Virus record (IMG/VR): IMGVR_UViG_3300013100_000006
Coordinates: 1 to 43,720 of that record
Direction: 5' to 3' (one strand)
Length of the DNA: 43,720 nucleotides
DNA from: a virus
The position numbers and the translations under genes were made by a program. A model generated the notes under the pieces. It had not been told where the DNA came from, searched no databases, and worked only from the letters and a program-made list of their open reading frames with translations. Shown piece after piece: positions 7,621-43,720 of the stretch. Position 1 is the stretch's first letter; each line of letters starts with the position of its first letter.

Positions 7621-7640
7621 CCTAGATAGTCTACTGAATC
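7621..7640 (-). promoter_or_regulatory. Phage RNA polymerase promoter directly before DNA polymerase
   Basis: Minus-strand sequence GATTCAGTAGACTATCTAGG matches the consensus shared by seven sites in this genome. The expected start at the GG leaves a leader of only about 11 bases (GGCGAGGATAC) before the DNA polymerase ATG. Confidence 0.85.
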
Positions 7641-7702
7641 ATCTTGTATATAAATCCCCTGTACAGATATGATAAGAGTACCTAAGAATATCTACTACTA
7701 GT

Positions 7703-7722
7703 CCTAGATACTCTACCGAATC
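7703..7722 (-). promoter_or_regulatory. Second phage promoter between ligase and DNA polymerase
   Basis: Minus-strand sequence GATTCGGTAGAGTATCTAGG has one change (C to G) within the otherwise invariant GACTATCTAGG core. It overlaps the ligase stop codon and stands 82 bases upstream of the first pol promoter, so DNA polymerase has tandem phage promoters. The changed base may weaken it. Confidence 0.75.
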
Positions 7723-9314: not shown

Positions 9315-9766
9315 CAGCGGCCCACGATGCTGCGGAACGCGCGCACTCGCGTCTCTCGGTTGCGGTACATCTTGGCTGCTTCCTCACTGCTGTCCACCAG
9401 CCTCTTGACATGCTCCGTCGCACGCTTCATCTTCTGGTAGAACTCCGTGTCCACGCAGAGGATGAAGTTCAGCGGCCGTACCTCTCCGTCCTCACCGGCG
9501 AACTTGTCGGTCTTGTAACTGCGCCATCCGTCGCCCACGCTGTCCGGGTCTGCCTTCTCCGGCCCGCTGCCGCCGAGTTCCGCGTACATGTCCATGAGGT
9601 CCAGCACGTCCTCCACGTCGCCGCTCCACGGGTCGAGTAGCACGAGCCAATCCTCGTCGGTGCCATCACCGAAGAAGTGCATCGTACCGGTCGGGACCAT
9701 CTCCTTAGCGTGCACCTTCACGCGCTCGATGATCTTCTCACGCTTCGTCTTGAATACACCCGCCAT
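9314..9766 (-). CDS. Possible nucleotidyltransferase-like protein (150 aa)
   Basis: The ATG at 9766 is chosen because GGGAGGT lies directly before it. Near the N-terminus HFFGDGTDEDWLVLLDP resembles the G...(S/T)DxDxxV metal-binding core of minimal nucleotidyltransferases, and a later FILCVDTEFY strand could supply a third carboxylate. The rest is helical and ends basic. Nucleotidyltransferase-like proteins are often annotated beside ligase and helicase in phiKMV-like phages, which supports but does not prove the call. Possible roles are nucleotide addition to RNA or protein. The gene starts right after the helicase stop and overlaps the cupin-like gene. Confidence 0.45.
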   Translation of the reverse strand: MAGVFKTKREKIIERVKVHAKEMVPTGTMHFFGDGTDEDWLVLLDPWSGDVEDVLDLMDMYAELGGSGPEKADPDSVGDGWRSYKTDKFAGEDGEVRPLNFILCVDTEFYQKMKRATEHVKRLVDSSEEAAKMYRNRETRVRAFRSIVGR

Positions 9767-18795: not shown

Positions 18796-18858
18796 GTACC
18801 TTGGAACCTACTAACTACTACGCTTAGGCGGCTCGCTCTTCGGCGGTACTTGCTTCGC

Positions 18859-19404: not shown

Positions 19405-19423
19405 CCTAGATAGTCTACCGAAA
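19405..19423 (-). promoter_or_regulatory. Phage RNA polymerase promoter in the control region
   Basis: Minus-strand TTTCGGTAGACTATCTAGG matches the phage consensus fully in the core. It lies upstream of all early promoters, the place of phiOL in T7, and could serve replication priming or packaging as well as late reading of the early genes. Confidence 0.8.
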
Positions 19424-26586: not shown

Positions 26587-26606
26587 CCTAGATAGTCTAC
26601 TGATTT
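26587..26606 (-). promoter_or_regulatory. Phage promoter before the tail fibre
   Basis: Minus-strand AAATCAGTAGACTATCTAGG matches the consensus. The start at GG gives a leader of about 19 bases carrying AAGGAGG, so the fibre has its own late transcript in addition to read-through. Confidence 0.85.
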
Positions 26607-38262: not shown

Positions 38263-38282
38263 CCTAGATAGTCTACTGAATT
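38263..38282 (-). promoter_or_regulatory. Phage promoter before the major capsid gene
   Basis: Minus-strand AATTCAGTAGACTATCTAGG matches the consensus completely in the core and overlaps the stop codon of the scaffold gene. It corresponds in place to T7 phi10. Confidence 0.88.
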
Positions 38283-41676: not shown

Positions 41677-42117
41677 TCAAAGCTCCTTGATTAGCTGCTC
41701 GGATTCGCTGCGGAATCCTGCGCGTTGGTAGACACGAGCCAGCCGCTTATCCTGCGTGAGCGCATCGCCTACACAGACCACTCGACATTGCTCGTCCTCG
41801 GCAAGGATGTCGAGCGCACGCAGCACCTTACGGTAGTCTCCGCCCGCTCGAATGCGGATTACCAGCATCTCACTCAACACGCGAAGCTCGGAGTTGTACC
41901 ACGGGACTCCGACGCAGTAGACGATCACGAAATGGTCATCGACCCGAACAGCCTTGAGCCGACCATCCGACACCGATCGGAAGCAGTCGTCCACGTTGAT
42001 GTGTGCGAACCACGACTTAGCGCCCGACTTCTTCGCTTGCTCTGCCACATGCACCATCGCGTCGTAGAACTCCCATCCTTGCTGGCAATCCCACTCGTCA
42101 CTCTGTAACAAAACCAT
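41677..42117 (-). CDS. GNAT-like protein (146 aa) after RNA polymerase
   Basis: GGAGC precedes the ATG at 42117, and the start overlaps the previous gene by 20 bases. The C-terminal half has the look of an N-acetyltransferase: a strand and helix at GGDYRKVLRALDILAEDEQC, a strand RVVCVGDAL and the closing signature RLARVYQRAGFRSES, where GNAT proteins have 'Y...GF'. The acetyl-CoA pyrophosphate loop (Q/RxxGxG/A) is not evident, so it may be a degenerate, non-catalytic GNAT fold. Such proteins occur at this place in phiKMV-like genomes and near T7 gp13, which helps virion assembly. Confidence 0.6.
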   Translation of the reverse strand: MVLLQSDEWDCQQGWEFYDAMVHVAEQAKKSGAKSWFAHINVDDCFRSVSDGRLKAVRVDDHFVIVYCVGVPWYNSELRVLSEMLVIRIRAGGDYRKVLRALDILAEDEQCRVVCVGDALTQDKRLARVYQRAGFRSESEQLIKEL

Positions 42118-42403
42118 CGCGAAGCTCCTTGAAGATGCGTTGGTAGGCCAGTGCTTGAGCTACCTCCATCGGTGTACTGGTGTTCACCACGATCGGCATC
42201 GGGAACTTGCGCTCCAGTTCAGCCATCACATGCGGCGAGAGGCGGGTCACCACAACTACCTTTTCCTTGCCTAGATAGTCTACCGATTCACCCGTCTGTT
42301 TCAGTTGACTATCTAGGACTGAATCAGGTGAAGAAGAACTTGCTGCGAAGAACTTCCCGCAGATCGAGTTGACCTTTGCGCGGAGTTTCTGGAAGAAGCC
42401 CAT
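42098..42403 (-). CDS. Hypothetical protein (101 aa) overlapping the RNA polymerase end and carrying two promoters
   Basis: AAGGAGA precedes the ATG at 42403; the first 80 bases overlap the RNA polymerase 3' end. The N-terminus MGFFQKLRAKVNSICGKFFA is basic and amphipathic, followed by a serine-rich linker. A compact alpha/beta half follows (KVVVVTRLSPHVMAELERKF, then IVVNTSTPMEVAQALAYQRI). Codons 26-46 are constrained by two oppositely directed phage promoters, which encode DSVLDS and SVDYLG. Function unknown. Its place corresponds to the small genes following polymerase in phiKMV. Confidence 0.75.
   Translation of the reverse strand: MGFFQKLRAKVNSICGKFFAASSSSPDSVLDSQLKQTGESVDYLGKEKVVVVTRLSPHVMAELERKFPMPIVVNTSTPMEVAQALAYQRIFKELRDGFVTE
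42270..42289 (-). promoter_or_regulatory. Phage promoter for the structural block (inside a gene)
   Basis: Minus-strand GAATCGGTAGACTATCTAGG matches the consensus. It lies in coding sequence just after RNA polymerase and would drive the GNAT-like, virion, portal and scaffold genes. Confidence 0.85.
42300..42318 (+). promoter_or_regulatory. Oppositely directed phage promoter, antisense to RNA polymerase
   Basis: Plus-strand TTCAGTTGACTATCTAGGA differs from the consensus by one base (T for A in GTAGAC) and keeps GACTATCTAGGA intact. It is back to back with the minus-strand promoter ten bases away; the cores form an 11-bp inverted repeat. Transcription would run through the polymerase gene in antisense. 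Confidence 0.65.
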
Positions 42404-43720
42404 TGTGCATCTCCTTGAAGAGTTCCAGAGGATCGTTATTCTCGTACATCGAGACGAACTGTTCCCGGATGATGTTGTAAAGACGTTCCGTGTCCGCTGC
42501 ATGCGTACCGTAATCGTCATGGATCATAGCTAGAGACTGGATACCCTCAGCCTTAGCAGCGAGAGTAGTAAGACACATATGCGCAGCGTCCATGCTATGC
42601 ACGAAGTTAGGAGATAGACCGTTCTTGTGCCCGTTCACGTCAGGACGATCGGAAGTAGAACCAACACGGATACGAACCCCACCCAACAGGATAGAGTTAA
42701 TCGTAACGATGTCAGCCTCTTGATACACTTGCCGGACCTTGAAACCAATCGGAGTGAACCATTCGATCTGTTGAGTCTGGGCTTTTATAATGGTCTGTGC
42801 TGCACGTTGCAGATAGTCCATCGCTTCACGCGCTGCGATAACCACTTGACCGATTGCTCTCCACACGAAGTGCGAGAGATACGATGCTGCGAAGCTATAC
42901 GACTCTCGCTTGAACTCAGGTGCCTTACCAAGCCGCATATAGTCTGCGACGATGAAGTCTGCACACGAGAACCGCGTAGAGCCGTACGGCAGGGTCATCA
43001 CACTGCGCTTGACCAGCGAGCGACTGATCCCGTGCTGAATCCAGAGTTCGAGGTACTCACGATCCCGCGCCCACCGCTTCGCTGCTTCTTCGTCTGCGTG
43101 CTCCGGCTCCGCTTTGGCCTGCTCGGCTCGAAGTAGCGAGAGAACAACCTCAGCAACCTGAGCGTAAATGTCGTTCGGGCGTTCTCCGTCAGTGAGGTTG
43201 GTTGCCCTTCCACCCACCGAATCTCGTAGCATTGCGCTGAAATGCTGGAGTCCGTTGCAGCTACCATCGAGGCCGACGGGAAGGTGCGACACAAACTGTG
43301 CACCTGATCGAACAGCCCTACAATATGCCTCGAATTCTCTGCATGCTGCCAAGAATTGCAGAGGACAGTCAGCATCCATCCACTCTCTGTGGCGTGTAGG
43401 CTCGCGCCCGATCGCTTCAAGCAGCTCCGCGTTGTCGTCAACCCATTTCTCCTGTTCTGCGTGCGGCACCTTGTCAATGCCGAATTTGTTCGCGATGTTG
43501 CGCTTGAACCATGCCACAGCGTGCGGCGTGTCCAGCGGCTTACCATCCGCAAAGTGGATTAGCGCCTTCTGCACGTCGCTCCCCTGCGGCGATACGACGG
43601 TCGTAATCGCGTAGGCCCGTGTTCGGAAATCCGCCTGATACATGAAGTAGATCGCCTCGTACTCGCGGAACTTGCGAGCGACGCGCATCGCCGTACCGAA
43701 ACGGCCCCACTTCGTGAACC
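42324..43720 (-). CDS. Phage single-subunit RNA polymerase, C-terminal catalytic part
   Basis: This is the 3' part of the polymerase that begins at 1222. In full-length numbering the catalytic residues are visible: the first aspartate in LDGSCNGLQHFSAML (D518, T7 D537), the lysine in VKRSVMTLPYGS (K604, T7 K631) with the tyrosine of YGS (Y612, T7 Y639), and the second aspartate in IHDDYGT (D768, T7 D812). The C-terminus SKFFFT ends in aromatic residues like the T7 'foot' (FAFA). The segment between GFKVRQVYQEADIVT and GLSPNFVHSMD should carry the promoter specificity loop. The last 80 bases overlap the next gene (42098-42403). A plus-strand copy of the phage promoter lies just beyond the stop codon and points into this gene. 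Confidence 0.97.
   Translation of the reverse strand, partial: FTKWGRFGTAMRVARKFREYEAIYFMYQADFRTRAYAITTVVSPQGSDVQKALIHFADGKPLDTPHAVAWFKRNIANKFGIDKVPHAEQEKWVDDNAELLEAIGREPTRHREWMDADCPLQFLAACREFEAYCRAVRSGAQFVSHLPVGLDGSCNGLQHFSAMLRDSVGGRATNLTDGERPNDIYAQVAEVVLSLLRAEQAKAEPEHADEEAAKRWARDREYLELWIQHGISRSLVKRSVMTLPYGSTRFSCADFIVADYMRLGKAPEFKRESYSFAASYLSHFVWRAIGQVVIAAREAMDYLQRAAQTIIKAQTQQIEWFTPIGFKVRQVYQEADIVTINSILLGGVRIRVGSTSDRPDVNGHKNGLSPNFVHSMDAAHMCLTTLAAKAEGIQSLAMIHDDYGTHAADTERLYNIIREQFVSMYENNDPLELFKEMHNGLLPETPRKGQLDLREVLRSKFFFT
43598..43720. repeat. Right copy of the 123-bp terminal overlap
   Basis: Exact copy of bases 1-123, encoding the same polymerase residues (about 367-407). It should be trimmed when the circular sequence of 43,597 bases is used. 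Confidence 0.9.

Follow-up and report, generated by a model that had tools for sequence, protein, structure and literature searches.

Phages of the T7 type are textbook cases of transcription programmes that run in one direction, and the limits set on their RNA polymerase (RNAP) are ascribed to protein inhibitors. In T7 itself the primary origin of replication is located just after gene 1, at the promoters phi1.1A and phi1.1B, both of which read downstream and in the same direction. The phage nearest to the one analyzed here among those with a name, Burkholderia phage JG068, has six described promoters, all of them forward, and an antisense promoter is not mentioned (PMC3765740). Repression by antisense transcription has been built synthetically in E. 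coli, where a gene with an opposing promoter at its 3' end is repressed via collision and antisense RNA, and the more strongly the farther apart the two promoters are (PMC4731013). We found no earlier description of an antisense promoter like the one reported below in an open-access library of papers (subscription papers were not covered), and the work on cold-sensitive mutants of AMP1 (PMC8917201) contains nothing on promoters.

The junction behind the RNA polymerase gene

The window, i.e., the whole stretch of DNA that was analyzed (an IMG/VR record of 43,720 bases), comes from a phiKMV-type, T7-like phage with all of its genes on the minus strand. It shares 75% DNA identity with JG068 (3.1 kb searched), and the C-terminal part of the RNAP is 85% identical to that of the JG068 enzyme; a genome-contig search with the query P0002 found no relative. 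The contig ends (1-123 and 43598-43720) duplicate each other over about 123 nt and split the RNAP gene, so that the record, although classed as linear in IMG/VR, has the appearance of a circularly permuted assembly. The DNA-metabolism module closes with the RNAP gene, and beyond a pair of promoters at the 3' end of that gene the structural module begins. The features needed below are the following.

42324-43720, continuing at 1222-1, minus strand: 3' part of the single-subunit RNAP gene (Pfam PF00940, E=1.6e-100), stop codon at 42326-42324
42300-42317, plus strand: putative antisense phage promoter TTCAGTTGACTATCTAGG, one mismatch to the consensus, predicted start at 42316, directed into the RNAP gene from its 3' end
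42270-42287, minus strand: sense phage promoter ATCGGTAGACTATCTAGG, predicted start at 42271, directed into the gp28-like and structural genes; counterpart annotated in JG068 at 18834
42270-42317: inverted repeat formed by both promoters, arms 42270-42280 and 42307-42317, 11 bp each
42098-42403, minus strand: gp28-like ORF, long form of 101 aa, beginning inside the RNAP gene and running through the promoter pair
38263-38280, minus strand: sense phage promoter before the capsid gene
26587-26604, minus strand: sense phage promoter before the ORF at 26569-24104 (tail-fibre position in JG068)
19405-19422, minus strand: sense phage promoter within the non-coding early region
7703-7720, minus strand: TTCRGTAGACTATCTAGG-type promoter site, upstream member of a tandem before the DNA polymerase gene
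7621-7638, minus strand: sense phage promoter directly 5' of the DNA polymerase gene

The phage promoter TTCRGTAGACTATCTAGG has six minus-strand matches in the window, each exact or one base off, and for an 18-mer at up to three mismatches only 0.01 occurrences are expected by chance. The core GACTATCTAGG is present in six exact copies, five on the minus strand and one on the plus strand (42307-42317), with a seventh copy carrying one mismatch at 7713-7703 on the minus strand. Start sites were inferred from the G that ends the promoter core. The plus-strand site lies 6 nt from the RNAP stop and is the sole close plus-strand match in the window; its single mismatch is a T for A at position -10 (taking GG as +1/+2). 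With the junction pair held out and only the five remaining sense promoters in the scoring matrix, it reached 32.2 versus 13.2 for the next best antisense position, ranking first among 43,697. A preliminary description of this DNA had pointed out the near-perfect plus-strand copy outside the RNAP stop of a genome otherwise read from the minus strand, the 11-bp inverted repeat, and the location of the pair in coding DNA, where promoter and protein constraints would have to be satisfied together; these three statements hold, the last one on the evidence of the reading frame given next.

A short form of the gp28-like protein, of about 51 aa and starting at a GTG near 42253, is the one annotated in relatives, including JG068 and Burkholderia phage Paku, and the homology of the relatives to this protein begins only at residue ~46. 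On that account we favoured at first an intergenic, non-coding location of the pair, which is wrong for the lineage of the window. Over the stretch from the RNAP stop to the start of gp28 homology, the gp28 frame is open in all 17 phages of the lineage, the window included (4.5 expected from shuffles), as against 5 and 4 of the 17 for the two remaining sense frames. The lengths of this stretch differ among the lineage phages while the phase is kept. The two promoters and a reading frame thus occupy the same bases. Since transcripts from the sense promoter begin within the ORF, they would yield the short protein only. It is possible that the ORF gives rise to two proteins, one from read-through mRNA and one from the late promoter, or that it serves as a frameshift extension of the RNAP.

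JG068 has six annotated phage promoters with a sequence identical to that of the window. On its antisense strand the homologous place reads TTCGGTTGACTATTCAGA, with the upstream half retained and four mismatches in 18 positions, including those at -3, -2 and +2. Loss of the core in close relatives had been named beforehand as a result that would speak against an antisense promoter, and JG068 meets it in part: three of its four mismatches fall within -3 to +2, but this degenerate site still tops the antisense matches of the JG068 genome. Judged from its bases, the JG068 site may be weak or dead, and from the window and JG068 alone a decaying antisense promoter cannot be told from a hairpin.

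Another arrangement shared by both phages is the tandem of promoters with an AT-rich spacer upstream of the DNA polymerase gene (7621-7720 on the minus strand of the window, 9559-9680 in JG068). In the upstream member GAGTATC replaces GACTATC in the window and in JG068, and a nearby inverted arm has the matching change. The tandem may serve as a replication origin or, alternatively, as a hairpin for RNA processing.

Distribution and maintenance of the antisense site

Aquamicrobium phage P14 has an RNAP with 52% identity and a different promoter, TTTCGGTACGCTCTAGCA, which was identified de novo; the divergent pair recurs behind its RNAP gene. We collected 80 RNAP-bearing loci from IMG/VR and completed 15 contigs. 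A divergent pair at the RNAP 3' end was present for 28 of the 86 RNAPs compared, each built from the promoter of its own phage, and the phages bearing it have about 20 differing promoter sequences. In 20 phages or loci with an antisense copy of their own promoter at this place, its predicted start was 3-14 nt beyond the RNAP stop in 18 and at +51 and +62 in the remaining two, P14 being the one with about +62. With a start this close to the stop codon the RNA would be complementary to the RNAP mRNA, as the placement of a cis-antisense RNA demands (18/20). When the junctions were scanned without any consensus, 19 of them contained an inverted pair matching at 16 or more of 20 positions, almost always in the expected geometry; among 356 shuffled junctions there was no such pair. 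On the RNAP tree (86 rows) the 28 positive rows need seven changes of state, versus 23.6 with shuffled labels, and they fall in three separate parts, the JG068/Paku/L144, P14/L122/L101 and L147/L163/L166 groups; Paku, like AMP1, carries an integrase. This was a quick tree supported by SH-aLRT only, and the rows compared are related, so that the counts overstate their independence.

We found no antisense partner in the phages of Caulobacter, Brevundimonas, Sphingomonas, Stenotrophomonas and P. putida nor in KP34, in all of which a sense promoter follows the RNAP stop at a short distance. Since entire groups of related phages lack the antisense site, it is not essential to this life style. In CP1 no repeated promoter could be identified, and in phiKMV only a weak repeated element was seen at the junction; hence neither is a strong negative. 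A scan of IMG/VR with the promoter pattern returned only JG068 and unrelated single matches. A tighter layout, again with no antisense partner, was observed in KiKu, LNA10, KP34 and P26059B, where the sense promoter overlaps or abuts the RNAP stop codon.

To rank the antisense positions of each genome we used a matrix (positions -18 to +6) derived from the other sense promoters of that same genome only. The junction antisense site came first in 16 out of 16 genomes, with z values of 5-8 among ~25,000-45,000 antisense positions each, and in several genomes it outscored the junction sense promoter. The 20 genomes with antisense copies had been picked after the inverted-repeat scan, but the rank test itself does not use the pair. 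When related phages with a changed promoter were compared, the antisense site followed the consensus of its own phage at 71 of 82 positions and that of the other phage at four (some comparisons share a phage). For example, the promoters read ...CTGAAGAC in L097 and ...CTTGGGAC in L144, a difference common to the sense promoters and the antisense copy. By tracking the promoter changes of its own phage, the antisense copy is held to the specificity of the polymerase. When laboratory T7 was forced onto an altered RNAP merely 4-5 of its 16 promoters evolved (PMC6171733), and given that so few did, the updating of the antisense site suggests that it affects fitness. L097 and L144 have nearly the same RNAP C-terminal part with differing promoter cores, making them a natural pair to map specificity residues.

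The preliminary description had read the plus-strand site as an antisense promoter pointing into the RNAP gene, possibly for negative feedback, and had asked whether relatives conserve it beyond what the codons require. Such conservation exists: many phages whose promoters are unrelated in sequence have the site at this place and in this orientation, and it changes together with the other promoters of each phage. The reading is borne out as far as a maintained promoter is concerned, its firing and the feedback being inferred without transcript data. That the plus-strand site is a promoter maintained by selection is strongly supported at the level of sequence comparison. On the other side, single-subunit RNAPs can be very strict (for the enzyme of another phage one base change abolished activity, PMC11475235), and the mismatch of the window at -10 lies in the specificity region and counts against activity. 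The antisense sites deviate from the consensus mainly at -13 to -7, which by inference would suit a promoter of somewhat lower strength, active when the RNAP is plentiful.

Other explanations for the pair

The main rival to repression is a replication origin, in which divergent transcripts would prime DNA synthesis bidirectionally at the RNAP 3' end, a place homologous to that of the primary origin of T7. We regard it as unlikely, although it has to be kept in mind because an origin needs a real promoter and hence explains the consensus tracking and the rank-1 results as well as repression does. A divergent pair would also suit bidirectional priming, and phi1.1A is the first T7 promoter, lies within 100 bases of phi1.1B and is lost upon deletion of gene 1 (PMC6171733). 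However, the GC skew at third codon positions runs through the junction without a break, whether or not the phage has the pair (skew being weak evidence in phages, this neither supports nor excludes an origin), the AT richness of the junction is about equal to that of phages without the antisense site, and the tandem promoters with their AT-rich spacer before the DNA polymerase gene (7621-7720) are at least as origin-like.

Fewer grounds remain for supposing that the inverted repeat matters as RNA, the read-through RNAP mRNA folding into a stem that would act as an RNase III site, as a stabiliser or in translation control of the next gene, with the plus-strand match as a by-product of the promoter arm. 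For 42270-42317 an RNA stem of 11 bp, an A.A mismatch and 5 bp (16 pairs) with a 14-nt loop is predicted; the JG068 stem retains 15 of 18 pairs, counting G.U, and the promoter before the DNA polymerase gene is also within a long stem (7676-7720), with GAG:CUC in place of GAC:GUC. These two stems of the window had first prompted a hairpin-only reading. It is disfavoured by the positions at which the arms differ, which track the promoter consensus. Among 284 columns in which the other promoters are invariant (one near-duplicate phage left out), the junction sense promoter was off consensus in 22; the antisense site had the consensus base in 20 of these and the base of its partner in one, and in eight of the 20 no pairing with the sense arm is possible, G.U included. 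Where the antisense site departs from the consensus, just 8 of 34 departures still pair with the sense arm. The likeness to the consensus also continues beyond the start site, e.g., GACACA on the antisense side versus GACGCA in its partner. Retention of the consensus where the sense partner has left it (20 of 22 versus one) argues that the site is kept as a promoter and not as a mere hairpin arm, and conserved arm pairing, the hallmark of an intrinsic terminator or RNase III hairpin, is not what these sites show. We consider the RNA stem an improbable explanation.

Still harder to sustain is a third possibility, that the antisense promoter fires but the product under selection is a noncoding RNA acting elsewhere or buffering RNA decay, instead of RNAP repression. 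Antisense RNAs with a proposed regulatory role are found in other phages, e.g., downstream of the capsid gene of LUZ100 (PMC10134795), but at this junction the antisense start keeps its place relative to the RNAP stop codon in the different lineages and there is no conserved antisense terminator that would delimit a discrete RNA, which leaves very little room for it. A functionless inverted duplication of the promoter, arisen by chance or kept as a neutral relic, could account for the degenerate copy of JG068 and for the several phage groups without the pair, but is strongly disfavoured by the first rank in 16 of 16 genomes, by the unrelated promoter sequences involved, by their co-change with the other promoters and by the absence of inverted pairs with at least 16 matches from the 356 shuffled junctions.

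Proposed function and known systems

We propose that the plus-strand site is a promoter for the RNAP of the phage itself, aimed backwards from the 3' end of the RNAP gene into that gene, and that it and the sense promoter would make up a divergent pair where the DNA-metabolism module gives way to the structural one. Once phage RNAP is present, the pair would switch on the late genes downstream and send antisense transcription back through the RNAP gene and those preceding it. Further expression of the RNAP and of the middle genes would then be limited in two ways, by head-on collisions with polymerases of host or phage and by antisense RNA acting on the RNAP mRNA, and the outcome would be a negative autoregulation combined with a middle-to-late switch. 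As no conserved terminator was found on the antisense strand, transcripts from the site would be expected to run far; about 9 kb separate it from the opposing phage promoter, which precedes the DNA polymerase gene. The analysis establishes the sequence of the site, where it lies, its geometry, its conservation in several lineages and its co-variation with the promoter specificity of each phage. Firing during infection, the long antisense RNA and the repressive effect are all inferred, there being no transcript data, and negative autoregulation with silencing of the upstream module at the late switch is, by inference, the most economical function. On balance we think that a conserved and selectively maintained antisense promoter, repressing the RNAP together with the genes upstream by way of polymerase collision and antisense RNA, is the probable explanation. 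Whether the wider picture is right is evenly poised. In it the divergent pair, joined to the end of the RNAP gene, would be a widespread regulatory element of phiKMV-type phages through which the polymerase would directly repress, in cis, its own gene together with the entire preceding module. The element would have outlasted many shifts in RNAP specificity and, in the lineage of the window, would be overlaid on a translated frame, providing negative feedback and a middle-to-late switch without a separate regulator protein.

If this is true, a conserved promoter directed against the RNAP's own gene would add a built-in feedback across many genera. The mirrored site is also an extra copy of the promoter of each RNAP, useful to define orthogonal RNAP-promoter pairs, and a reverse promoter may lie hidden in expression parts that are taken from the 3' end of these RNAP genes.

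With regard to systems already described, the promoters of JG068 have the same sequence as those of the window, including the annotated sense promoter at 18834 behind the RNAP gene, but its antisense copy is degenerate whereas that of the window has one mismatch. The pair resembles phi1.1A and phi1.1B of T7 in that promoters for the phage RNAP immediately follow the RNAP gene, where the region transcribed by the phage enzyme begins (PMC6171733); here, however, one of them is directed back into that gene. In LUZ100, which is also T7-like, antisense transcription has been detected by ONT-cappable-seq (PMC10134795), although downstream of the major capsid gene and not at the RNAP gene, and no conserved mirrored promoter was described. 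The closest likeness in geometry is that of the synthetic antisense promoter at the 3' end of a gene, which represses by collision and antisense RNA (PMC4731013). That construct depends on the host RNAP, whereas the arrangement found here is natural and would be driven by the product of the very gene that it would repress.
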